Positions 2,947 to 14,837 of a stretch of DNA of 34,456 nt are shown piece by piece. The first letter of the stretch is position 1. Every line of letters begins with the position of its first letter. The translations under genes were made by a program, and so were the position numbers. This DNA comes from Crocinitomicaceae bacterium. GTDB taxonomy: Bacteria; Bacteroidota; Bacteroidia; Flavobacteriales_D; Crocinitomicaceae. The DNA lies in the NCBI GenBank assembly GCA_021740745.1, contig JAIOZF010000029.1, positions 1-34,456 of the forward strand. Reading direction: 5' to 3'. Under the pieces are notes generated by a model. It made no database searches. It was given only the letters and a program-made list of their open reading frames with translations, and was not told where the DNA came from.

Positions 2947-3452
2947 ACTACAATTGTTTTAGTTGTTTTTTCTGACAATGCCACCAATAACATTTTTCTA
3001 CCTCTCATCAAACGCTGTTTTACCGCGTCTACAGTACAATCTTGAATTTCTGCCGTTTCTTTTAACGAAAAACCTGCAATTTCGAAAAGAATAATACAAG
3101 TGCGATAATTCAAAGGAAGCATATTAAGTGCCTCGTAAAGCTCATCGTGTTGGAAGTTTTTGTCAACGGAAAATGAATGATCTTGGGTGTTTTCTATACC
3201 TTTCAATTCCGAAAATGACAAGGGTTTATTTTTCCTTCGGAAATTGGCATGTACCTTATTTGCTATTCCAAACAAAAAAGACAAAAAAACTTGTTTGTTT
3301 TTCAATGAATCAAATTGCTCAAAAGCAATTACCAAGGTATCATGCATCAAATCGTTAAAATCACAAACGCCATAAGAACGCGCTTTACAAAATCGTTCAA
3401 AACTCCCGTGCACAGGATTGTACAATTCCATAAATTGTTTCTTTTTTGTCAT
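2943..3452 (-). CDS. ECF-type RNA polymerase sigma factor
   Basis: 169 residues, the usual ECF length. Region 2 spans about 8-77, with the core-binding/-10 segment recognisable as DLMHDTLVIAFEQFDSL and FLFGIANKVHANFRRK. Region 4 spans about 105-155, with the helix-turn-helix LKETAEIQDCTVDAVKQRLMRGR preceded by LPLNYRTCIILFEIAGFS. It is a cytoplasmic transcription initiator. The downstream membrane protein overlaps its stop by 4 nt, consistent with a sigma/membrane-partner pair. The target promoters are unknown. No clear TAnnTTTG box was found in front of it. Confidence 0.9.
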   Translation of the reverse strand: MTKKKQFMELYNPVHGSFERFCKARSYGVCDFNDLMHDTLVIAFEQFDSLKNKQVFLSFLFGIANKVHANFRRKNKPLSFSELKGIENTQDHSFSVDKNFQHDELYEALNMLPLNYRTCIILFEIAGFSLKETAEIQDCTVDAVKQRLMRGRKMLLVALSEKTTKTIVV

Positions 3453-3539
3453 TCTATTCGCATACTATTTGCTTCTTAAACAGTAAGTGTTAACCTGCTT
3501 AAAAAAGTGACAAGAATACATGAAATAATAATTAGATAG

Positions 3540-4193
3540 TTACTTGGCAGTGCGCTCAAGCATTGGCACAAACTTAAACGTTCCAAACTCTTGTACGTCT
3601 AATTCTGTTTCGGTTTTCTTAATGATTCGCTTCATGATTTGTTCCCCACCTTCACCGACTGGAATTATCATTATTCCTCCAACTTTTAGTTGATCTATAA
3701 GTGTTTGTGGGACTTCTGGCGCACCACATGTTACAATGATTTTATCAAAAGGAGCATCAATCGGCATTCCTTTGTAACCATCACCAAACTGTAGTTTTGG
3801 GTTAAAACGAAAATGATCCATGATTTTCTTCACTTTCAAAAACAACTCTTTTTGTCGCTCAATGGAATAGACTTTTGCACCCATTTGACAAAGGATGCAC
3901 GTTTGAAAACCAGAACCTGTGCCTATTTCTAATACTCGGTCTCCTCTTTTAATTTCTAACATTTGACTTTGGAAAGCTACTGTTATTGGGTGCGAAATCG
4001 TTTGACCAGCTCCAATTTGAAATGCTTTATTCGAATAAGCTTGTTCTAAAAACGCTCTATCCAAGAAGAAATGACGCGGAATTTCATAGAAAGCATCAAA
4101 TATGGCTGAATTAGTGATACGCTCGTCTTTTTTTAATTCATCGATTAATTGACGACGCATTCCTTTATGTTTGAAAGTATCCTGAAATTGCAT
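3540..4193 (-). CDS. pcm: Protein-L-isoaspartate O-methyltransferase
   Basis: 217 residues. The enzyme methylates isoaspartyl residues in aged proteins with S-adenosylmethionine, starting their repair to aspartate. The family hallmarks are present: the substrate-loop segment GAGQTISHPITVAFQ (about 61-75), the SAM motif VLEIGTGSGFQT (87-98) and the later motif FDKIIVTCGAPEVPQ. Length is standard. The start is fixed by a perfect -7 box, TAACTTTG, ending only 4 nt before the ATG, which predicts a leaderless mRNA. It is a single gene, separated from the sigma-factor operon by about 90 nt. Confidence 0.95.
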   Translation of the reverse strand: MQFQDTFKHKGMRRQLIDELKKDERITNSAIFDAFYEIPRHFFLDRAFLEQAYSNKAFQIGAGQTISHPITVAFQSQMLEIKRGDRVLEIGTGSGFQTCILCQMGAKVYSIERQKELFLKVKKIMDHFRFNPKLQFGDGYKGMPIDAPFDKIIVTCGAPEVPQTLIDQLKVGGIMIIPVGEGGEQIMKRIIKKTETELDVQEFGTFKFVPMLERTAK

Positions 4194-4197
4194 GGTT

Positions 4198-4205
4198 CAA
4201 AGTTA
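4198..4205 (-). promoter_or_regulatory. -7 box of pcm
   Basis: TAACTTTG on the minus strand matches the Bacteroidota consensus TAnnTTTG at all six fixed positions. Four bases (AACC) separate it from the pcm ATG, so transcription should begin at or next to the start codon. No clear -33 TTTG is seen. Confidence 0.6.
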
Positions 4206-4340
4206 CATTTTCAAAAGGGATTATGATTCACGTATTTTCAAACATTTACGTGTTAACAGTTGGATTCTGGATTTTAATTCTTCAATGATTTAATTGCAAT
4301 TCCTTAATATACAGTTAACATTACTTATCACTCCAAACTC

Positions 4341-4348
4341 TACTTTTG
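4341..4348 (+). promoter_or_regulatory. -7 box of the small lipoprotein gene
   Basis: TACTTTTG fits TAnnTTTG exactly. It lies 18 nt before the ATG at 4367, leaving a leader of roughly 14 nt. It also overlaps a possible TTG start at 4346, which argues for the ATG as the true start. Confidence 0.5.
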
Positions 4349-4366
4349 AGACCTAATTTAACACAC

Positions 4367-4681
4367 ATGAAAGCACTTTTTATCGGAGTAATTCTATTCT
4401 CAACCTTAGTAATAAACGCTTGTTCAGTAACTAGAAACATTGACACAACTGGATTTACCATTTCAGGAAATGTTGTTTCGTACAACAATAAACCCATGGC
4501 AGAATTAAAAGGAATTGAATTCGCGCTTGACAATAAAAAATTCGTTAAAGAAATGAGCTTTACCTTACTTCATGGTGATGACAATGATAAAATCCACAAC
4601 TTGATTGCTTTCTTGCACAATCACTACAAGGAATATGAAATTGAAGTTGAAATTCCTATGGATTCATTCAAAGTTGAATAA
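4367..4681 (+). CDS. Small lipoprotein, function unknown
   Basis: 104 residues from the ATG. MKALFIGVILFSTLVINAC is a type II signal peptide with lipobox INAC, so the mature protein would be lipid-anchored. The mature part (about 85 residues) is mixed alpha/beta and ends in an acidic strand EYEIEVEIPMDSFKVE. A TTG seven codons upstream is open but overlaps the -7 box, so I chose the ATG. It converges on the TPMT-family gene with only 4 nt between stop codons, so any terminators must lie inside the coding regions. I do not recognise the family. Confidence 0.75.
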   Translation: MKALFIGVILFSTLVINACSVTRNIDTTGFTISGNVVSYNNKPMAELKGIEFALDNKKFVKEMSFTLLHGDDNDKIHNLIAFLHNHYKEYEIEVEIPMDSFKVE

Positions 4682-4685
4682 AACG

Positions 4686-5267
4686 TTACTTTATCAATCG
4701 AATAAATAACTCATTACCGCTTCTTGGCGCTGCAGAGTTATGACAAGTTTCCATTGAACAACTTTTGAAATAAGGCGCGAAGCATTCTAAGTATTCTTCT
4801 TTATTTCCACCAAATGGTGGTCCCGAATCAAAAGTACGGTTGAATAATACGCCAACTAGCTTCCCGCCTGTATCTAGTAATTCAGCTGATTTTCGTACAT
4901 AATCATTGCGAAGAAGTGGATCAATAGCACAATAAAGTGTTTGCTCAATTATCAAATCATACCTTCCTTGGTGCGCAAAAAAATCACCACAATGCATTTG
5001 ATCTATTGGGAAATCTGAATTTCTAGCTTTGAAATTATCTAATGGAGCTTGTGCAAAATCCAAGATATGCACGTTTTTGAATCCTTTGAGAAAAAGGTAC
5101 TCAGCCTCCCAAGCATTTCCACAGCCAGGAATTAGAATACGTAAATTGATATCAGTCAATTGTTCAACATATGCATGAATTGGTGGCGAAATAGCGCCTA
5201 AATCCCAACCAATTTGACCTTCATGATAACGATTGTTCCAAAATTCTGAGGATAAGAAATCTACCAT
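4686..5267 (-). CDS. Thiopurine S-methyltransferase (TPMT)-family SAM methyltransferase
   Basis: 193 residues. The N-terminal FWNNRYHEGQIGWDLGAISP (9-28) is the characteristic opening of the TPMT family. The SAM-binding motif is ILIPGCGNAWEAEYL (44-58), followed by the acidic end of strand 2, VHILDFAQAPLDN. The family methylates small thiols, selenium or tellurium compounds; the substrate here is unknown. Its ATG lies 4 nt after the stop of the preceding T9SS cargo gene, making it the apparent last gene of the cobalamin-riboswitch operon. A cytoplasmic methyltransferase at the end of an outer-membrane uptake operon is noteworthy. Confidence 0.85.
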   Translation of the reverse strand: MVDFLSSEFWNNRYHEGQIGWDLGAISPPIHAYVEQLTDINLRILIPGCGNAWEAEYLFLKGFKNVHILDFAQAPLDNFKARNSDFPIDQMHCGDFFAHQGRYDLIIEQTLYCAIDPLLRNDYVRKSAELLDTGGKLVGVLFNRTFDSGPPFGGNKEEYLECFAPYFKSCSMETCHNSAAPRSGNELFIRLIK

Positions 5268-5271
5268 ACAA

Positions 5272-6240
5272 TTAATTTTTAATCACTCTTTTTACAAATG
5301 CCCTACCGTTTAATTGAACTTTAAACAACAAAACCTGTGGGTCAAAGGATGTTAAATCCACCAACAAATCTCCATTAAATATCGAGCTAAAGAGCACTCT
5401 CCCACTTAAATCTAAAATCGTCAATTCACCTGAAAAATCACTCGATAAACGAACAAAATCATTGCTAGGATTAGGATATAGCGAAAAATCAAGTGAATTC
5501 TCACCCAACTCCAAAGGCTGTGAATGAATCACCCCGACAGCATCTAAATCAAATCCACTCGACTCCCAGGGAGTTGAAAAAGGATCATTGATGATGTTAC
5601 CCAAACCATCATAAGTTGCATACAATGGATTAATACTGCCTACAACATCAATGATTCGGACATGTGTAATATGATTAACATCTAAATTTAAATTATGAGC
5701 GAGATCCTCCAAATCGAAAGGAGTCCCAAATCCTTGACGGTATTTTCCAGCTAAATTGTTCACATAGCGACAATCACCAAAAGTAAAGTTTGTTATTTGA
5801 ACATCAATTGGTGTTTCACTTACCGAAGGAAAACGATAGAAATCAAGCCCATTAGAACTCACTTCAACATGTCCCAATTCCATATAATTGTCAGTAAAAC
5901 CATTTTCAAAGATGGCAAAATCGGGACCGGGACCATTGATAATTAAACCAGGGAAAGTCAAGGTTGCACTACCTCTATCGCCGAGGGAAACAATCGTTGT
6001 ACCGTCACCTTCTGCAATTCCCAGTGCATTTTCAGGTACTCCAAAAGAAGCATAGCCTTGGAATTCTTCTGACACATCTCTAAATCCTCGTACAACATCT
6101 ACTCCATCAGCCCATAACACAAAAACAGATGAATCTTTATGAATAGCTGTACTTCCAGGCAATCCAGCAGCTGGAGCAAAACTTTGAGCCGCTAATTTAA
6201 ACTGAAGAAGTATCAGGAAAATGAAACTAATTTTATTCAT
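5272..6240 (-). CDS. T9SS-exported surface protein of the cobalamin operon
   Basis: 322 residues. A signal peptide (MNKISFIFLILLQFKLAAQ) is followed by a domain of about 215 residues containing GGPGPDF-type turns (IINGPGPDFAIFENGF), VEVSSNGLDFYRFP, GTPFDLEDLA, HVRIIDVVGS and SGFDLDAVGVIH. I recognise this layout from Bacteroidota surface proteins encoded beside TonB receptors and beta-propeller lipoproteins. Residues about 250-322 are a type A T9SS sorting domain (FSLYPNPSNDFVRLS ... FVKRVIKN). Its start overlaps the end of the BtuG-like gene by 8 nt. A role in capturing corrinoids or their carriers at the cell surface is inferred from the riboswitch-controlled context. Confidence 0.8.
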   Translation of the reverse strand: MNKISFIFLILLQFKLAAQSFAPAAGLPGSTAIHKDSSVFVLWADGVDVVRGFRDVSEEFQGYASFGVPENALGIAEGDGTTIVSLGDRGSATLTFPGLIINGPGPDFAIFENGFTDNYMELGHVEVSSNGLDFYRFPSVSETPIDVQITNFTFGDCRYVNNLAGKYRQGFGTPFDLEDLAHNLNLDVNHITHVRIIDVVGSINPLYATYDGLGNIINDPFSTPWESSGFDLDAVGVIHSQPLELGENSLDFSLYPNPSNDFVRLSSDFSGELTILDLSGRVLFSSIFNGDLLVDLTSFDPQVLLFKVQLNGRAFVKRVIKN

Positions 6241-7285
6241 AAAAGAGAATTTTACTTGGATTCAATCCGACATGATAACTCGTTTCGTAAACTCCTTGCG
6301 ATGAATACCGGCGCACATATCCCGTATTGGTAAAGTTCATTGCATCTAAGCAGTAGATCTTATCGTTGTAGGGATTATAACTCACTCCATAAAGTGTTTG
6401 AATATCACTCGTATTGATAAAATTGGAATTCAACAATGTTTCATTTAAGGGATCAAATAAACGAACCGACGAAGATTGTGTTGAATAATTATAAAACGTT
6501 ATTAGAAAATTGTCATTCATATGGGAGAATCCCAATGCATCAAAAGGAAATTGTTCTTCAACGGCAAGGCTACTAGCATTGATACGAACCATTCTTGAAG
6601 GATTGGACCCATAATTTCCTCTTGCTATCACATACACATCACCTTCTTGATCGACAATTACACTTCCTGGATTCTTACCTACTGTGATTTTTTGAATTTC
6701 TTGATAGGTTGTTAGATCAATAACCGAAAGCGTAGAATCGACATTTGGGAAATTCAAACCACCTGAATTCGCCACAAATAATTTCCCATTACTTACAGCT
6801 AATCCTTCTGGATTTGATCCAACTTGAATTCGCTGAACGATACTCAACGATGTTGTATCCAAAACATCTACGAAACCGTCATAGCAACTAATATACGCCT
6901 TGTTTCCATGAAACGTGATTGATCGTGGCGATTTTGCTGTGGTACCGACAAACATATTAATTTGCTTCAAGCTTTTTCCCGTTGATTTTTCTAATACTTC
7001 GACCAAACTTGAACCGTTAACGACAACGTATATTTTTCCACCGTAAACCTGCATGTCATTTCCTGTATCTCCCAATAGACGGTTGTTTTTCGATAAAAAG
7101 AAGTCAATATTAACAACTGTACTTTGATTATCAACCCACGAAATGGAAGAATTGTTTTGCTGAAACAGTCCCTCATTTAACACTAAAAATCCATTTGACA
7201 AGCTTTCAGGCACAACAGGTTCAATCGGTTCTTTTTTACAAGAGACAATTAGTGATAGCAAGAATAAACTAATAACGTAACGCAT
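6233..7285 (-). CDS. btuG: BtuG-like beta-propeller surface lipoprotein
   Basis: 350 residues. Lipobox LIVSC places the lipidated Cys at 16, followed by KKEPIEP. The remainder is a YncE-like propeller with recurring blade motifs (NKAYISCYDGFVDVLDTTSLSIVQRIQVG, GKLFVANSGG, STLSVIDLTTYQEIQKITVGKNPGSV). In Bacteroides thetaiotaomicron, BtuG is exactly such a lipoprotein; it binds vitamin B12 very tightly and caps BtuB. Here the gene overlaps the BtuB-type receptor by 17 nt and lies under a cobalamin riboswitch. That context makes the assignment stronger than the generic propeller fold would. Identity of the B12-binding residues was not checked. Confidence 0.75.
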   Translation of the reverse strand: MRYVISLFLLSLIVSCKKEPIEPVVPESLSNGFLVLNEGLFQQNNSSISWVDNQSTVVNIDFFLSKNNRLLGDTGNDMQVYGGKIYVVVNGSSLVEVLEKSTGKSLKQINMFVGTTAKSPRSITFHGNKAYISCYDGFVDVLDTTSLSIVQRIQVGSNPEGLAVSNGKLFVANSGGLNFPNVDSTLSVIDLTTYQEIQKITVGKNPGSVIVDQEGDVYVIARGNYGSNPSRMVRINASSLAVEEQFPFDALGFSHMNDNFLITFYNYSTQSSSVRLFDPLNETLLNSNFINTSDIQTLYGVSYNPYNDKIYCLDAMNFTNTGYVRRYSSQGVYETSYHVGLNPSKILFYE

Positions 7286-9242
7286 AATTCAGGCTTAGTA
7301 AGTAATTTCTTCCAGGCATTACGTAGTAGCGAACGTGTGCATACGAAGTATTCAAGATGTTCTTGCACGAAAGCTGTAAACGGAGCTCGTGTTTTTTAAT
7401 GATAAACGATGTGAAGACGGATAAATCAACTAAAATGAATCCATCGACTTTATTTCCAAGCGTATTTTCATTCAATGAATATCTCAAGGAATTGGCATAA
7501 ATACTTGAACGAATTCCATGCTTTTTATAATGATATGATATATCCCAATTACCCGAATGAACTGGCAAATAAGCTACTTGGTGACGGTAGGTTGGACTTG
7601 TCTTATCCGTTAAATCAATCACCGATTGGTAGGTGTAATTAATGATTGAGTTGACAAATGATTTATCACTGAATTTCAAATAGATATCAGTAGAAAAATC
7701 AAATCCCAACACTTGTACTTTTCCAACATTTTGCATGGACCAAATGAATAAATTTTTAGTCGGAACAGCAATAATTTTATTGGCTACCAAGTTGTAATAA
7801 AGATTCAATTTAGATCGAACATTTAGTATACCCTTGATGCGTTTGTGCTGTGCCCCAATAGCAAATTGATTCGCCTTTTCTGGTATTAAATCTAAATTTC
7901 CAATATTGTTGTAGTACAACTCATTGAAACTTGGCATTCGGAAAGAATTACGATAGAAGGTGTAAAATTCTAAGTTCTCTCGCTTACCATATTCTTTTGT
8001 TTCCAATTGAACAAAAGGATTCACATGAAATTCTTCTGACTGATTGATAGAAGAATAGTCCAAAACATATTGCGCACTCAATTGAGCTGTTGCTCGGAAA
8101 ATTCTGCCTAAATGCTTCACTGAAACAAATGAAAAATTATGCTGACGTATAGGTGAATTAACTGATATCATTGTCGACTCTAACAAGCTCATTTGTTGTT
8201 CGGTACCACCACTATATTGCCAGCCATTACCAGTTGAATAAAAAGCATTGACACCAGTATTTAATGACTTATTAAAGTATTGTGAGAACATTCCGCCTGC
8301 AGCGTTTAAATAGCTTGAATCAGCGTATTCCATATTAGAAATGGTTGCCATTGCAAAGGTGTGTAATCGAATCTGATTAAGTTGAAAGCTATATGAACCT
8401 TGGATGCGATGACTCAACTGACTCAAGGTTTGCGCTGAATTATCATTATACAATATCACTGCACCCGGCAATTCTTGGTCACTATAACACGTCCGATAAG
8501 AAATGAAGGCTTTGCCCCCTTTATTGAAGTTTCTCGAAATAGAAAATACACCATTAGCATCTTGATATTGATTATTCGACCGCACACCTTCGTAAAAATT
8601 AGAACCATTTCTGACGGAAAATGGATACTCACCATTCGCCATTCGGTATTTACCAGATGCAGCGAAAAACCACTTATCCGTGCTATGTTTATAACCTAAG
8701 TATGAATCAGTTTGACCAAAAGAACCTATTTTTTGAGTTAATCGCACTTCATTTTTTACATTCGAAAAAGTATTTTCAAATGTTGAAATCGAAAGTACAT
8801 TTCCTGCAGCAAAACTCGATGCTGGTGACAAATAAAAACTTGATTTCCCACTTAACATAAAGACTGATTCTACATTTTCCGTTTGAATTTGTCCTAAATT
8901 AATTTGTCCTGACTGATCTTGACTAACCGCAAATCCATCGATGATTAATTGTGTGTGTTGTCCGCCAATTCCACGCACAGAAATCGTTTTCATACCGCCC
9001 AAACCACCGTAAGACTTCACTTGAACCCCTTCCATTTTCTGAAGTAATTGTCCAACATCTTCAGCTTGAAGCTCCAATATTGCAGCTCTTTTAAGAATCG
9101 AAATACGGTCCTCAAGTCTTATTACTTTGATCACAGTTGTTAAATTATCAGTAACCTTTACCTCTGGTAATTCTTGATCTATAACCTGTCCGAATGACAA
9201 GCTACAAATCAATAAATAGAACAAGGTTATACTGCGTTTCAT
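7269..9242 (-). CDS. btuB: BtuB-type TonB-dependent cobalamin receptor
   Basis: 657 residues. A signal peptide (cleaved near SFGQ) is followed by a short segment ELPEVKVT that may serve as TonB box. The plug (about 45-150) shows GQLLQKMEGVQVKSYGGLGGMKTISVRGIGGQHTQLIIDGF split over its expected strands, and the 22-strand barrel ends in YVMPGRNYLLSLNYALRY with a terminal aromatic residue. There is no N-terminal CarboxypepD_reg domain, and the size is close to E. coli BtuB. It follows the DUF4465-like gene by 20 nt and overlaps the BtuG-like gene. The cobalamin riboswitch upstream gives the substrate. Confidence 0.88.
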   Translation of the reverse strand: MKRSITLFYLLICSLSFGQVIDQELPEVKVTDNLTTVIKVIRLEDRISILKRAAILELQAEDVGQLLQKMEGVQVKSYGGLGGMKTISVRGIGGQHTQLIIDGFAVSQDQSGQINLGQIQTENVESVFMLSGKSSFYLSPASSFAAGNVLSISTFENTFSNVKNEVRLTQKIGSFGQTDSYLGYKHSTDKWFFAASGKYRMANGEYPFSVRNGSNFYEGVRSNNQYQDANGVFSISRNFNKGGKAFISYRTCYSDQELPGAVILYNDNSAQTLSQLSHRIQGSYSFQLNQIRLHTFAMATISNMEYADSSYLNAAGGMFSQYFNKSLNTGVNAFYSTGNGWQYSGGTEQQMSLLESTMISVNSPIRQHNFSFVSVKHLGRIFRATAQLSAQYVLDYSSINQSEEFHVNPFVQLETKEYGKRENLEFYTFYRNSFRMPSFNELYYNNIGNLDLIPEKANQFAIGAQHKRIKGILNVRSKLNLYYNLVANKIIAVPTKNLFIWSMQNVGKVQVLGFDFSTDIYLKFSDKSFVNSIINYTYQSVIDLTDKTSPTYRHQVAYLPVHSGNWDISYHYKKHGIRSSIYANSLRYSLNENTLGNKVDGFILVDLSVFTSFIIKKHELRLQLSCKNILNTSYAHVRYYVMPGRNYLLSLNYALRY

Positions 9243-9262
9243 TTGTTACAAATCAGCAATAA

Positions 9263-10228
9263 TTATTTGATGATTTTTTGGACTGAAACTCCATTTTCGT
9301 GATGCATTTCAATGAAATATACACCAGAATCGAAGTCGCTAAAATCGATTTGAGACTCCAGTATATGTTCAGAGACAGTTAACAATTCACCTTTCAAATT
9401 GAAAACGCGAATTTCTCCTTCACTTCCTTTTAAATTGAGAATATCTTCCACAGGATTTGGATAGACCTGAAAGACATTTTCTTTTTCAGCAACACCTAAA
9501 TATGGCTGATAAGCAACATTGTCAACAGCTAAATACGAAGGTGTATTCATTCCGAAATCACCGTTATCACTTGATTCGAAACGGAACCGAATCGAATAGA
9601 TAGGGAATAAAATCCCAGTTAAATCAATTTTCGTCCATTGATCTATGATATAATCCTGTGAGTTATCAGAAAATCGATAATCAGCCAAAAAGAATTCGAT
9701 TGAATCTTTATCTGAACCATTTCCTCCCTCAGCTATAATCCAAACCTTAAGAAAATCCTCGCCATTCGTTCCGTCATCAACTCCATTTGCATTGAGTGAA
9801 GAACCAAATTGTTTCGCAAAATCATCCCCATCGCGCATTGAAATTGCAGTGTAGGTCGTATTTGTGATAAATAAAGAATCAATGGTCCCAAACTCAAAAT
9901 TGCTTAGGAAATTAATTGTACCATCTGGATAGAAAATCGAGTAATTACTTGAATTCAAACCTGAACCAGGGAAAGCACTGTATTGATTTCCCCAACCTGC
10001 TGTCGTATTATCTGTGATATTTGAAATCGAAAAACCATTCCAAGACATCCAACCCGCATCGTAAAAATTATAAAACTCAAGACTTTCATCAATGAAACTA
10101 CCATTTCCAGCAGAACCATTATTATAAGATTCGGGAGTTAAAGTGAAATTTTCAAAATCAGCAACCATTTGCGAGCTGACTAAACTGCTGAAAGAAATTG
10201 CAGCAACTAATAAATAAATTTTCTTCAT
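9263..10228 (-). CDS. DUF4465-like T9SS-exported protein, first gene of the cobalamin operon
   Basis: 321 residues. A signal peptide (MKKIYLLVAAISFSSLVSSQ) is followed by about 225 residues resembling DUF4465: ADFENFTL, then SWNGFSISNITDNTTAGWGNQYSAF split by a linker, TTYTAISMRDGD, and the closing SYLAVDNVAYQPY. A type A sorting domain follows (about 247-321, FQVYPNPVEDILNLKG ... VSVQKIIK). It is the first gene behind the riboswitch, so it should be among the most strongly B12-controlled. DUF4465-like proteins often sit beside TonB receptors. Bacteroides cobalamin loci also carry extra surface B12-binding proteins (BtuH), but I cannot tell from sequence alone whether this is one. Confidence 0.82.
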   Translation of the reverse strand: MKKIYLLVAAISFSSLVSSQMVADFENFTLTPESYNNGSAGNGSFIDESLEFYNFYDAGWMSWNGFSISNITDNTTAGWGNQYSAFPGSGLNSSNYSIFYPDGTINFLSNFEFGTIDSLFITNTTYTAISMRDGDDFAKQFGSSLNANGVDDGTNGEDFLKVWIIAEGGNGSDKDSIEFFLADYRFSDNSQDYIIDQWTKIDLTGILFPIYSIRFRFESSDNGDFGMNTPSYLAVDNVAYQPYLGVAEKENVFQVYPNPVEDILNLKGSEGEIRVFNLKGELLTVSEHILESQIDFSDFDSGVYFIEMHHENGVSVQKIIK

Positions 10229-10273
10229 CGTTTTTAAGTTTTAAAATGAAACATTAAACGTGAAGAATTCAGT

Positions 10274-10313
10274 AAAAAAGAAATAACACTCGCTCTTTAG
10301 AATAGCGAACATT
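10274..10313 (-). terminator. Intrinsic terminator, expression platform of the cobalamin riboswitch
   Basis: On the minus strand AATGTTCGCT pairs with AGCGAGTGTT (10 bp, three G-U) around a 9-nt loop, followed by ATTTCTTTTTT. It lies between the B12 box and the first gene. Just upstream, AGACTT and AAGTCT around 10320-10340 can pair in alternative ways, a candidate antiterminator segment. The arrangement predicts transcriptional shut-off when cobalamin binds. Confidence 0.75.
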
Positions 10314-10348
10314 AAGTCAGACTTTGATCTGAAGTCTTCATTAAAAAC

Positions 10349-10513
10349 GATTTAAGGCAAGTATTCTGACTCCTACCAACTCGCCTTCGTCTTCCCATTC
10401 GCCGGAGCAAACAGTGACCTATTGAAAGCGATTTTACAGTAGTTACAGCTGCAGATACAGTTCTGGATTTTCACCAGATTCCTTTTTAGTCCACCAAGGT
10501 GGCACCATAAATC
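10349..10513 (-). promoter_or_regulatory. Cobalamin (B12) riboswitch
   Basis: Read on the minus strand, the conserved elements come in the right order. P1 forms from GATTTA (10508-10513) and TAAATC (10349-10354). GGTGCC lies at 10501-10506. The core AAAAAGGAATCTGGTG followed by AAAATCCAGAA is at 10461-10487, CAGCTGTAACT at 10441-10451, and GGTCACTG at 10412-10419. A GGGAAG segment lies near 10392-10397, and the B12 box GAGTCAGAATACTTGCC at 10356-10372. The box deviates slightly from the textbook AGYCMGGAGACCKGCC. The aptamer sits 120 nt upstream of the DUF4465-like gene, with a terminator in between. Confidence 0.93.
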
Positions 10514-10517
10514 TTTG

Positions 10518-10525
10518 CGAAGATA
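10518..10525 (-). promoter_or_regulatory. Likely -7 box of the cobalamin operon
   Basis: TATCTTCG matches TAnnTTTG at all fixed positions but one. It ends 4 nt before the P1 stem, so transcription would begin at or close to the first base of the riboswitch. No convincing -33 TTTG was found. Confidence 0.45.
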
Positions 10526-10674
10526 CCTTTTTTCGAGCAGAAAATTCGCTAGAAACGAGTAATAATGAGAAATATGATAGAAAGCATCTCATTTTAACAC
10601 ATATGAACACATTGAGCGAAGAAGTATTCAAAATTAATCCCATCATTATTGAGTTCATCGGATTTCATAATTAA

Positions 10675-10786
10675 TCCTTCGGCCTATCGGCGAGCTCAGG
10701 GGAGTCCAGCTCAGGAGCCTTAATTTATAATTCATCCTTCGGCAAGCTCAGGAGCCTAAATTCATAATTCATCTTTCATAATTCAT
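10675..10786. repeat. Imperfect tandem repeat carrying the CTTCGGCAAGCTCAGG core
   Basis: Unit A (10675-10734) and unit B (10735-10771) both start TCCTTCGGC, contain GCTCAGGAGCC and end in AATTCA. Unit A carries an extra insertion of about 23 nt. A third degenerate piece, TCTTTCATAATTCA, runs into the stop codon of the TonB receptor gene. The core is the same family as the element at 735-750. The remaining stretch 10526-10674 of this 554-nt gap holds no supported gene. Confidence 0.6.
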
Positions 10787-13215
10787 TTCTTCGCTTTACC
10801 TTCCAATTTCCATGTATATTGAACCATTATTGTTCTTGGAGCTTCAATCTTTAAAGGTCGCAAAGAATAACTGCGATTAAATATATTCGTACCAATAATT
10901 GCTAACTTATGTTGTTCACTTATTTGATACGAAATGCGTGCGTCAAAAATCCAGTTACCAAAACGATGCGAATCAAAATAATCCATATATCTTAAATCTT
11001 GAAGAACAGCAATATCAGTCGTTAAATCCTCAAAATCTTTTATAATCGCATCCATGTTAACGATCTTACTGAAATATTTCGCACTCGCTCCAATTCCGAT
11101 TTTCTTATTGATCAGTAACTCCATGTCTGCTTTAATATTGTGAAGAAAACGGTACTTCAAAATTCCTTTTGTAGAATCTAAAGATGTTGTATTATAACTA
11201 AAAACACGCTCCAAAGAATCAATTGCATAAACATAATCTGGTGTCAAGGTTTTGGGAACTATGTAATTATAGCCTGCCATAAATGTCAATTCTGACTTCT
11301 TGCTCAATTTTGCCATTCCTGAAAATGATAAATCCAAACCTAAAACTCTTGAATTTCCAGTGTTTAAGAATTTGAATCCAGCGCTTGAACCAAGTGCTTG
11401 TGGTGTTGTAAGTGGATTCCAAATTCCAAACATATATTCAATTGTGTTTTGATATTCTTGCCAAAAACCTGCTAAATCTAAATATCCATATATTTTACCA
11501 AATTTCAATCCTTGTTTAATACCAACTTCGGCATTCCAGCTACTTTCTGGCTTTAAATTTGGATTCGGAAAAACGCCCATATTTCCTACTCCCGTTTTAA
11601 TAAAACGCTCGGTGATTGTTGGAAAACGGTATCCTTGACCATAAGACGCTCTTAAATATGTTTCTTGATATATTTTAATACTCGTTCCAGCTCTAAAAAT
11701 AGGTTTCATTGCCGTGACAGTATCATTCAATTGAAAATATTCCAATCTACCACCTACTGATAAATTCAAGGTTTTATTAATCTTATTTTCCAATTGAGTA
11801 TATGCAGAAATATTCAAAAGCTGATTATTTGGTGTACCTGAACCTACATAAATGTTTGAATACGAATCGGTAAAAGTCCCTGTAATTCCTCCAATAAAAT
11901 CAAGTTTACGCAACTGAGGAAACGTTTTTTGAAACATATAATCTCCATAGATTGTTGTCGCTCGATTCGATTGATTGGCCGTCATTTCGTTATCTACATG
12001 CAAAATACGGGAACGCAAGCTATGTTTACCATCTGTTTGTGTAAAAAAATTGACGTATGGATCTAAATTAAAAATGAACTGATCTTGAAGGAAAACCGCT
12101 CCAGGATAAGCATTATATAAGCCAGAAGTATCATTCAACCATGCAAAAGCCATAGCAGAATGTGAAAGCATAAAATTCCCATTCATTCCATAGTTCAAGC
12201 CTTTTACTTTCTTTGATCTATAGCGAAGATTAAAATTAATTCGGGCTCTCTTTGAAACCAAATCATTTTCACTAAAATTTGAAATAGTATCCGGAAACAT
12301 TGTTGCGACTATTGAATCAGTCTTTGGGGGGCCAATATAACCATGATCGTAATTAAAGTTTCCGCCAACAACTAAATCTAAATTCCCAATGATTCTTGAA
12401 TGTAAAAAATTCACACCGTGAATTCCTGGATAATTATCCCACCATGCATCATAATCATTAGATGGGTTTGAATAAAATCCTGAATAGACATTAACCTTTG
12501 TTAATGGTTTTATTTTTGGATATGCCGTGCGAATATGAACAGATCCAGAAAGTGCTGAACTTCCTGAAAGAACAGAAGCTGCGCCTTTGATTACTTCTAC
12601 TTGATGTATATTTTCAACTGGAATAAATCCCCATTCTGGTCGACCTGCATCTCCTGATAACATTGGCATGTCATCAACGATTACAGCCACTTTGGAACCA
12701 ACTCCAAATGTAAAACCACTTCCACCTCTAATTTGAGGTTCACCATCTAAAATGTTCAAACCTGGTGTTTGGTCTAATGCTGTTTCGATGCTTCGTGTAT
12801 TCTTATTTTCAATTAATGCAGGCTTAATGACTTCCATCGAAACGGTTTGATCTTCAAAGGCCTTGTCAAACTTCCCCACTCTCACTTCTACTCCGTCAAT
12901 TTCCTGAACATAAGCACTTAAAATAACATCTTGAGTAACCATCTGTCCAGCCAACACATTCACTTGAATTGTATCTGTAACCATTCCTGATGCTCGACAA
13001 ATTAAATTTGCTTTACCTGCTGGAACTTCCAACATAAAATTCCCTTTTTCGTCAGTCACCGCGCCAATTGTAACATCTTTCTTGTATATAATTGTCGCGC
13101 CAATTAGACTTTCACCTTTATCGTCACGGACTTTTCCAGTTATTTTACCGTCTTGTCCAAATGCAAAAGAGGTAAGACAAATAAGCAGTAGTGTAGAAAA
13201 TATATTGAGCTTCAT
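10783..13215 (-). CDS. TonB-dependent receptor with CarboxypepD_reg N-terminal domain
   Basis: 810 residues. A signal peptide (cleaved near FAFGQ) is followed by a CarboxypepD_reg-like domain (about 22-105, GKITGKVRDDKGESLIGATI opening) and a plug (about 125-235, ETALDQTPGLNILDGEPQIR, then KVAVIVDDMPM and VEVIKGAASVLSGSSALSGSV). The long barrel includes the SYGQGYRFPTITERF segment and ends in TIMVQYTWKLEGKAKK, so a charged tail follows the last strand. It resembles outer-membrane receptors for siderophores or metal complexes; the substrate cannot be read from the sequence. A strong terminator lies only 19 nt before its ATG, so it needs its own promoter in that gap or depends on read-through. 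Confidence 0.88.
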   Translation of the reverse strand: MKLNIFSTLLLICLTSFAFGQDGKITGKVRDDKGESLIGATIIYKKDVTIGAVTDEKGNFMLEVPAGKANLICRASGMVTDTIQVNVLAGQMVTQDVILSAYVQEIDGVEVRVGKFDKAFEDQTVSMEVIKPALIENKNTRSIETALDQTPGLNILDGEPQIRGGSGFTFGVGSKVAVIVDDMPMLSGDAGRPEWGFIPVENIHQVEVIKGAASVLSGSSALSGSVHIRTAYPKIKPLTKVNVYSGFYSNPSNDYDAWWDNYPGIHGVNFLHSRIIGNLDLVVGGNFNYDHGYIGPPKTDSIVATMFPDTISNFSENDLVSKRARINFNLRYRSKKVKGLNYGMNGNFMLSHSAMAFAWLNDTSGLYNAYPGAVFLQDQFIFNLDPYVNFFTQTDGKHSLRSRILHVDNEMTANQSNRATTIYGDYMFQKTFPQLRKLDFIGGITGTFTDSYSNIYVGSGTPNNQLLNISAYTQLENKINKTLNLSVGGRLEYFQLNDTVTAMKPIFRAGTSIKIYQETYLRASYGQGYRFPTITERFIKTGVGNMGVFPNPNLKPESSWNAEVGIKQGLKFGKIYGYLDLAGFWQEYQNTIEYMFGIWNPLTTPQALGSSAGFKFLNTGNSRVLGLDLSFSGMAKLSKKSELTFMAGYNYIVPKTLTPDYVYAIDSLERVFSYNTTSLDSTKGILKYRFLHNIKADMELLINKKIGIGASAKYFSKIVNMDAIIKDFEDLTTDIAVLQDLRYMDYFDSHRFGNWIFDARISYQISEQHKLAIIGTNIFNRSYSLRPLKIEAPRTIMVQYTWKLEGKAKK

Positions 13216-13233
13216 TGATCTATTTTAATAAAA

Positions 13234-13268
13234 TGAAAAAAACACCCCCAAATGGAGGTGTTTTGAAA
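13234..13268 (-). terminator. Strong intrinsic terminator between the T9SS cargo and the TonB receptor
   Basis: On the minus strand AAAACACCTCC pairs with GGGGGTGTTTT (11 bp, one G-U) around ATTT and is followed by a U run. It lies 16 nt after the stop of the gene at 13284 and 19 nt before the ATG of the TonB receptor gene. Confidence 0.88.
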
Positions 13269-13283
13269 AAAATACTTGAGTCA

Positions 13284-14837
13284 TTAGAATGAAATAACTT
13301 TTCTAATCAATTCACCCATTGCATTCTCGATATGCACAAAATAAACTCCTGCTGGGTGAGAGAAACTTGTCTTAGAAACAACTTGACCTTCTTGAATCAT
13401 TGTTCCTAACGATGAATAAACTGTGTATGTACCCTCTAGTTCATTTAAAGAATTCACGAACAGTTGACCATTGTTAACAGAAATTTGAATGTTTTCAAGT
13501 TCATTTTCTTCAATACCTGAAGTATTAATCACATTGACAAACACAATTGCTTGATCACAAGTCGCAGGTGAACCACCATCACAAATTGAATAAGTAAATG
13601 AATCGAAACCAGAGAAACTTGCATTTGGCGTGTACGTTATTTCTCCTGTTACAGTATTAATCGACGTTGAACCATTCGTTGCATTTGCTACAATTGTTAG
13701 AGATGTATTGTCAATATCGTTTTCGAAATCAACATCATTTGCTGTTACAGCGATAATTAAAGCTGTATTCATATTTGTTGATACATTGTCATTCACAGCG
13801 TTAATAGGATTATTACCAACAATTACTTCTAAAACATTGATATTTACAGTAGCGATATCACAAAAAACAGGTGTTCCATTGTCGCAAATCTCATACTCAA
13901 ACATGTCTGTACCGAAATAACCAGCATTTGGTGTGTAGGTAATAACACCTGTTGTTGTATTTATAACCACACTTCCATTCGCTGGAGCAGTAGTTATGGT
14001 AATTCCTGCGATATCAAAATCATTCTCAGGATCTGTATCATTTGCCAAAATATCAATATCAACAGCTACATCTTCAAAGGTATTTGCTGCATCATTTACT
14101 GCAACAACAGGAAGATTTGTAACAACTGGGTTGTAAATCAATTCAACATCATCTATCCACAATTGGTCATTATCGCTTCCTCCTCCTGGAATTTTGTTGG
14201 TAGTATAAGTCAAAAGAATAAATTGCGTTGTTGCAGCAGGTCCACTGTAGTTAAATGGAACTGAAATACGTATCCAACCATTCGCTGTTTTAAAGTTTCG
14301 GATTGCTGTTGCAACCACATGGGAAGCAGACGCTGCATTAATTGGATCTCGTAAATTGTAAGAATCATGCAGTATTGCACTTACACGAGCGGAATCAGAC
14401 CCAGCACCGTTTGCAGGTATGAATTTCGCCCAAAACACCAATGAATCTGGTTCAACAGTTAAGGCTTCCGAAAAATTAGTACCACTGGTGATTGAAGAAT
14501 TGTAATTTGCAGGATCATTGGCTGCGGTTGCACCCATATTAATTTGTCCCAATGTCACATTACCGTTTGCAATTGTACCCAAAACACTGTTCGACCAAAT
14601 CTTCACACTTTTCGTTCCTGTGCTTCCAGGACGAACATCTGTTGACCAATCCATTTGTTGACCTGCAAAAGTCGACCATGTACCAGAAGCGGTCATAAAA
14701 CTGTTCCAATTGATTGGTTCATGAAGTTCATCAGTAGTTGTTTCCCAGTTTTCAAAACCAGCATTCCCAATTTGCGTTTGAGCAAAAAACATAGCTGAAG
14801 TTGAAACTGCAATTATAAATAGTAAAAATCTTTTCAT
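13284..14837 (-). CDS. T9SS-exported surface protein with two cadherin/Ig-like repeats
   Basis: 517 residues. A signal peptide (cleaved near FFAQ) precedes an N-terminal beta-rich domain (about 22-240) that opens IGNAGFENWETTTDELHEP and closes DNDQLWIDDVELIY, similar in style to the PCMD/carbohydrate-associated domains of Bacteroidota. Two tandem repeats of about 90 residues follow (about 248-340 and 345-437), each with VNDAANTFEDVAVDIDILAND- or NDVDFEND-type opening, GVITYTPNAGYFGTDMFEYEICD-like middle, and VNINV end. These look like Ca-binding cadherin/Big_9 repeats. A type A sorting domain closes the protein (about 445-517). It is probably surface-attached; the ligand is unknown. Confidence 0.85.
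   Translation of the reverse strand: MKRFLLFIIAVSTSAMFFAQTQIGNAGFENWETTTDELHEPINWNSFMTASGTWSTFAGQQMDWSTDVRPGSTGTKSVKIWSNSVLGTIANGNVTLGQINMGATAANDPANYNSSITSGTNFSEALTVEPDSLVFWAKFIPANGAGSDSARVSAILHDSYNLRDPINAASASHVVATAIRNFKTANGWIRISVPFNYSGPAATTQFILLTYTTNKIPGGGSDNDQLWIDDVELIYNPVVTNLPVVAVNDAANTFEDVAVDIDILANDTDPENDFDIAGITITTAPANGSVVINTTTGVITYTPNAGYFGTDMFEYEICDNGTPVFCDIATVNINVLEVIVGNNPINAVNDNVSTNMNTALIIAVTANDVDFENDIDNTSLTIVANATNGSTSINTVTGEITYTPNASFSGFDSFTYSICDGGSPATCDQAIVFVNVINTSGIEENELENIQISVNNGQLFVNSLNELEGTYTVYSSLGTMIQEGQVVSKTSFSHPAGVYFVHIENAMGELIRKVISF

Follow-up and report, generated by a model that had tools for sequence, protein, structure and literature searches.

A halide/thiol-methyltransferase-like gene ends a cobalamin-riboswitch operon in one branch of the Crocinitomicaceae

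In this study, we analysed a 34,456-nt stretch of DNA from a Crocinitomicaceae bacterium (the window, by which we mean this whole stretch) and, within it, the gene at 4686–5267 on the minus strand, which encodes a 193-aa protein from an ATG start. The gene closes a B12-uptake operon that lies behind a cobalamin riboswitch. On balance, we favour the reading that its product is a sulfur S-methyltransferase that was captured by the B12 regulon in one Crocinitomicaceae-type branch. Such a regulatory setting is unexpected for a known enzyme type, and it is conserved yet limited to one clade.

All operon elements are on the minus strand. The riboswitch aptamer (RF00174) at 10524–10339 scored 96 bits against a gathering cut-off of 31.5 and is the only such match in the window's genome, which is 96% complete. 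Between the aptamer and the first gene (10229–10345), a hairpin followed by a U-rich run is a possible expression platform, with a weak fold signal (z −2.19; 5 of 200 shuffles folded equally well). Behind the riboswitch come, in order, genes for a DUF4465 protein with a T9SS tail (9263–10228; Pfam and NCBIfam profiles), a BtuB-like TonB-dependent receptor (7269–9242; 108.1 bits for TIGR01779, under the equivalog cut-off of 599.7), a DUF5074 beta-propeller protein (6233–7285; Pfam), a secreted protein with a T9SS sorting tail (5272–6240; here T9SSx), and the methyltransferase. Successive genes are spaced by a 20-nt gap, a 17-nt overlap, an 8-nt overlap and a 4-nt gap. An upstream cobalamin riboswitch and contiguous genes on the same strand mark the gene as a predicted member of a B12-riboswitch regulon. 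The initial annotation had described the gene as the last of a B12 operon, beginning 4 nt after the preceding stop. Both statements hold: 5272–6240 ends 4 nt before it on the same strand, and the operon is bounded by a small convergent plus-strand ORF that comes next, at 4346–4681 (listed with a TTG start, and with an ATG in frame at 4367). The strand of the gene had not been given in that annotation. Beyond its tail, T9SSx gave no match in Pfam or PDB searches; a homologue is present in 10 of the 14 mapped relatives that share the window's gene order. DUF5074 domains occur in surface proteins that bind B12, for example BtuG. B12 binding by eight DUF4465 members is described in excerpts of PMC13398666, as is the colocation of PF16819 and TonB receptors with DUF4465 genes. 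The riboswitch, the BtuB-like receptor, DUF5074 and DUF4465 are therefore shared with Bacteroidota B12-uptake operons (BtuB, BtuG, DUF4465), but the window operon differs from these in ending with a cytosolic methyltransferase, and no B12-uptake operon with such an ending was found among the literature matches listed.

Two further features border the operon. Before the riboswitch, at 10783–14837, the window encodes a large TonB-dependent receptor together with another protein of secreted type, a gene pair that is syntenic in most of the linked relatives mapped. In five same-genus loci (L062:1547–4213, L064:6422–9088, L065:1845–4505, L071:10854–13529 and L074:507–3197), a protein of ~886–896 aa is encoded 3′ of the methyltransferase, ~15–40 nt behind it, and the operon may be longer in these loci; the window lacks this protein at the corresponding position, and its L062 copy has no confident Pfam family.

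It had also been stated earlier that neither a promoter nor a terminator is visible before the gene. No inverted repeat of ≥8 was found in 5200–5420. As for promoters, sigma-70-like sites in 3400–11000 show no excess over shuffles (26 versus 29.4 ± 5.6), but single minus-strand look-alikes lie upstream of the methyltransferase, the best at 6516–6488 inside 6233–7285 (11/12 matches) and another at 5345–5318 (9/12 matches). Because of these look-alikes, there may be an internal promoter ahead of the methyltransferase. The −7 promoter motif of Bacteroidota is TAnnTTTG; one copy, at 5778–5785 and without a partner −33 box, occurs on the minus strand from 6240 to 5267.

Across the family, 127 of 200 genomes, from 22 of 24 genera, gave a match to the methyltransferase (weak, at 20–25 bits, in three of the 127), and a cobalamin riboswitch was found in 186 of the 200. 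We compared linkage at 126 of the 134 methyltransferase places (124 genomes), the eight weakest or second-fragment rows being excluded. In at least 31 places, a listed riboswitch precedes the gene by 1.4–6.3 kb on the same contig and strand; among those listed, 13 are in the window's genus (g1), 2 in g10 and 16 in g18. In seven places the riboswitch is on the same contig but 18 kb to 1.2 Mb from the gene, 53 have their riboswitch on another contig, and 35 are without a listed riboswitch; the riboswitch place of one genome (G125) is not among the matches listed. Among 29 loci tested, a same-strand operon gene is found no more than 1.5 kb upstream in 13/13 g1, 8/8 g18, 2/7 g10 and 0/1 g22 loci, which makes the methyltransferase a conserved operon member in g1, g10 and g18. 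Neighbourhood conservation in relatives, on which the initial annotation had made its operon assignment depend, was thus seen in these three genera, but no linked place was seen in the others.

Linked loci show two operon layouts. Fourteen mapped loci have the long layout, as in the window, and eight have a short one consisting of the riboswitch, a ~425-aa protein and the methyltransferase. The ~425-aa protein is, by weak similarity, a BtuG-like propeller with a T9SS tail: it shares 22% identity with the window's DUF5074 protein (E 1.5e-8), reaches PDB surface-layer propellers at E about 0.1, and only its tail is detected by Pfam. An assignment of this protein to DUF4465 was rejected, as the match covers the T9SS tail alone and the remainder is weakly DUF5074/BtuG-like. 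A search with the window's BtuB at E 1e-10 detected a homologue in all four long-layout genomes tested but in none of the eight short-layout genomes and not in G017; five of these last nine are <90% complete, and G017 itself has no methyltransferase.

A tree of 107 proteins (L102, L103–L106, the duplicate L165 and four odd-length rows were omitted, the genomes of L103–L106 being already present) placed 23 of the 24 rows labelled B12-linked in one 28-row set with weak branch support (43). As labelled, the tree needs seven label changes, three of them forced by well-supported branches. The set also holds L067, labelled unlinked but in fact linked, and L083, likewise labelled but cut by a contig end, together with L094, L097 and L107, which are unlinked. 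One capture followed by a few losses would be compatible with the tree. The label of L140 as B12-linked was discarded as false; it arose because a neighbour of 863 aa gave a short match. Beside the methyltransferase of L094 (G191) is a 203-aa ORF (L094:6699–7310) whose first ~20 residues equal the start of that methyltransferase and whose remainder is the C-terminal half of a class-III aminotransferase; it is either a tandem partial duplication or an assembly error. The MAGs of L107 and L103 are titled 'Actinomyces viscosus' and 'Chitinophaga pinensis', whereas their methyltransferases group with the window's family, and these public titles look mislabelled.

The main rival to capture by the regulon is that a rearrangement placed the gene of a housekeeping sulfur enzyme behind the B12 operon, from which read-through transcribes it, its B12 control being without physiological meaning. 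We regard this as a serious possibility, short of the reading that we prefer. It would fit the wide distribution of the gene in the family and the fact that 0 of 66 places outside g1, g10 and g18 are linked to a listed riboswitch, although contig breaks hide some. It would also fit four same-genus genomes of 94–99% completeness (G017, G063, G106 and G130) that keep the riboswitch and gave no methyltransferase match. Moreover, the operon and the methyltransferase are separated by an opposite-strand ORF in L077 (G075) and by a SpoIIE-type gene in a linked g10 locus (G069), and the promoter look-alikes leave room for separate expression. Against it stand the occurrence of the link in two layouts, one of them in genomes without a detected BtuB homologue, its presence in every g1 and g18 locus tested, and the frequent gene overlaps, the methyltransferase overlapping the preceding gene by 1–17 nt in 7 of 24 linked loci (mechanical start calls).

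The protein belongs to the Pfam TPMT family (PF05724; E 1.3e-23, 84.2 bits versus a cut-off of 26), as had been annotated. The name nevertheless needs refining, since the protein scored only 41.3 bits for the TPMT equivalog TIGR03840 (cut-off 223.2) and 38.1 bits for PRK13255 (cut-off 213), for which reason we dropped the canonical TPMT label. In a profile search of PDB sequences, the best relatives are halide/thiol methyltransferases, with human TPMT ranking eighth (E 2.6e-10). The predicted structure (pLDDT 93.7) is best matched by 8ajp, a bacterial halide methyltransferase (Z 25.5, 29% identity). The next rows are tied (3lcc 22.3, 7bgg 22.3, 6mro 22.1, 9h09 22.1, human TPMT 21.4); they include a mycobacterial heterocyclic-toxin methyltransferase (Z 22.3), and the plant and fungal halide enzymes at Z 21.5–22.3 are level with human TPMT, so that 8ajp alone stands apart. 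Taken together, profiles and model suggest that the enzyme probably belongs to the halide/thiol-methyltransferase branch of the TPMT fold and is a small cytosolic SAM-dependent S-methyltransferase. The thiol-type chemistry proposed in the initial annotation is supported by these relatives.

The halide and thiol methyltransferases of known structure (8ajp from Paraburkholderia, 3lcc from Arabidopsis, the Tulasnella halide enzymes 9h04–9h09, and thiol methyltransferase 1 in 9h0d and 9h0g) resemble the window enzyme in size and fold at 24–29% identity. The cysteine of an FLCA/FFCA stretch is common to the window enzyme, 8ajp, 3lcc and 9h04 but is absent from 9h0d and 9h0g, and E-R-A of 8ajp corresponds, almost without exception, to E-Q-T in the Bacteroidota clade. 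Thiopurine S-methyltransferases (human 2bzg and bacterial Tpm/TIGR03840) share the Pfam family and the fold (Z 21.4), with only 18% identity between 2bzg and the window enzyme. The column of human R152 presumably corresponds to Gln 109 of the clade. In excerpts of PMC13089183, R152 (human numbering) is called an important active-site arginine of TPMT, and hydrosulfide and persulfides are reported as TPMT substrates; halides, HS− (bisulfide) and SCN− are named as substrates that halide/thiol enzymes can methylate in excerpts of PMC8453949.

Gene neighbourhoods elsewhere bear on the substrate. The methyltransferase is widespread in Bacteroidota: named genomes yielded at least 589 confirmed loci, of which the best 80 formed our neighbourhood set; clustering of neighbours recognised the methyltransferase in 116 of 120 loci. 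By clustering and Pfam, some gene clusters combine an ArsR-type regulator, TauE/SafE, the methyltransferase, a metallo-beta-lactamase-rhodanese and the YeeE/YedE halves, and alternative clusters contain a thioredoxin and a rhodanese. Judged from its domains, the metallo-beta-lactamase-rhodanese would be persulfide-dioxygenase-like. Probed sulfur genes accounted for 49 of 580 genes up to 4.5 kb away and for 4 of 536 at greater distance in 74 loci counted as unlinked, one of which (L104) is in fact B12-linked. A recount that excluded the misfiled L104 as well as L106, L136 and L181, from which the probe proteins came, gave 39 of 550 versus 3 of 505 (Fisher p 1e-8), an enrichment that is inflated because the probe proteins were picked from among the neighbours. 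A metallo-beta-lactamase-rhodanese or TauE lies within 4.5 kb in 11 of the 74 loci, and none of the probed sulfur genes does in 58 of them. Given these 58 loci and the origin of the probes, the sulfur context recurs without being universal. Within the family to which the window belongs, the metallo-beta-lactamase-rhodanese adjoins the methyltransferase in three (L085, L086 and L089) of the 14 unlinked loci checked, with both YeeE/YedE halves also nearby in L085 and L089. Counting against a sulfur role, the three metallo-beta-lactamase-rhodaneses of the window's genome are all on other contigs. Because TauE, metallo-beta-lactamase-rhodanese, YeeE/YedE and ArsR neighbours occur in some relatives, methylation of sulfide or small thiols appears the likeliest chemistry. 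No publication placing this enzyme with sulfur genes or in a B12 regulon was found among the matches listed. A comparable job, detoxification of H2S and methanethiol, is proposed in excerpts of PMC12904073 for the S-methyltransferases MddA, MddH, MddM1 and MddM2; as described there, MddA is a membrane enzyme and the others are of the UbiE/UbiG family, which would set them apart from the window enzyme.

The initial annotation had instead considered a corrinoid-linked substrate. In its most explicit form, the enzyme would methylate the cobalt of reduced cobalamin, or a corrinoid-bound thiol, and so aid the formation of methylcobalamin from imported corrinoid. The place of the gene in a B12-uptake operon would agree with this, as would the attack of the family on soft nucleophiles, cob(I)alamin being one. 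We nevertheless consider it very improbable: many Bacteroidota carry the enzyme with none of the probed B12 genes beside it, its closest relatives methylate small anions and thiols, Pfam detected no corrinoid-binding domain in its 193 aa, and CobS was found in 0 of 13 genomes tested.

Methionine synthesis provides the physiological background. MetE was found in only one of 200 family genomes (G096), where its gene (G096:C1:2210736–2213018) has a same-strand cobalamin riboswitch ~185 nt upstream. The window's genome has MetH, its metH being in two adjacent pieces (G000:C65:9227–12894; model positions 2–325 and 325–1181), and the MetH activation domain was found in 12 of 13 genomes tested. With MetE nearly absent and MetH present, most cells of the family probably need B12 for methionine. 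The earlier proposal that the enzyme compensates for lost B12-dependent methylation, by supplying methionine or methyl groups when MetH fails, is thereby given a use, as a bypass would be valuable where MetE is so rare. However, enzymes of this fold take their methyl group from SAM, which cells make from methionine; therefore, a SAM-dependent enzyme gives no net methionine and cannot replace MetH. We dropped the proposal on this stoichiometry and hold it to be very improbable. The single genome with MetE, moreover, already has it behind a cobalamin riboswitch, and riboswitch-controlled MetE is a known way to compensate B12 shortage. Tailoring of a cobamide lower ligand, for example by S-methylation of a thiopurine base, would suit the name of the family and the fact that methylthioadenine cobamides exist, but it can practically be dismissed because CobS, needed for ligand attachment, was not found in any of the 13 genomes by a search that was positive in 10 of 14 control genomes.

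Given these data, we return to the sulfur S-methyltransferase captured by the B12 regulon and propose how it might work. The enzyme would most likely act on soft sulfur nucleophiles such as HS−, small thiols or persulfides. Its ancestral role, in a widespread Bacteroidota enzyme, was probably sulfur handling, and the gene would then have come to lie at the end of the riboswitch-controlled uptake operon, with whose genes it would be co-transcribed. Cobalamin riboswitches usually allow expression at low cobalamin. From its position in the operon, the enzyme would be expected to appear alongside the uptake proteins under cobalamin shortage. In cells with MetH as sole methionine synthase, B12 shortage would cause homocysteine and, behind it, sulfide to back up, and methylation of sulfide or thiols would relieve this back-up. 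As the physiological reason for the link, such relief is only a tentative suggestion, and one linked genome, G018 (98% complete), counts against it with no match to the MetH activation domain. Thiol stress is tied to B12 through the SAM/homocysteine cycle also in Caenorhabditis elegans, where, according to excerpts of PMC9090326 and PMC9548181, the thiol-response methyltransferase RIPS-1 makes thiols toxic at low B12 through SAM drain. RIPS-1 differs in being an animal protein that is induced by thiols and the HIF pathway, with no B12 riboswitch. By analogy, thiol methylation would drain SAM, and induction of such an enzyme under B12 shortage would for this reason be puzzling.

In summary, a probable S-methyltransferase ends a riboswitch-controlled B12-uptake operon in three genera of Crocinitomicaceae. 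It is conceivable, though we think it rather unlikely, that B12 starvation has a sulfur arm in these bacteria, in which a riboswitch-induced S-methyltransferase vents the sulfide and thiols that accumulate behind a stalled methionine synthase or, more boldly, methylates incoming reduced corrinoid. If the enzyme is a true member of the B12 response, B12-dependent bacteria would treat sulfide and thiol overflow as part of B12 starvation, and vitamin supply would be linked to the release of volatile methylated sulfur. Even if the gene merely travels with the operon, its sulfur neighbourhoods give a substrate hypothesis for a widespread and apparently uncharacterised enzyme of Bacteroidota.
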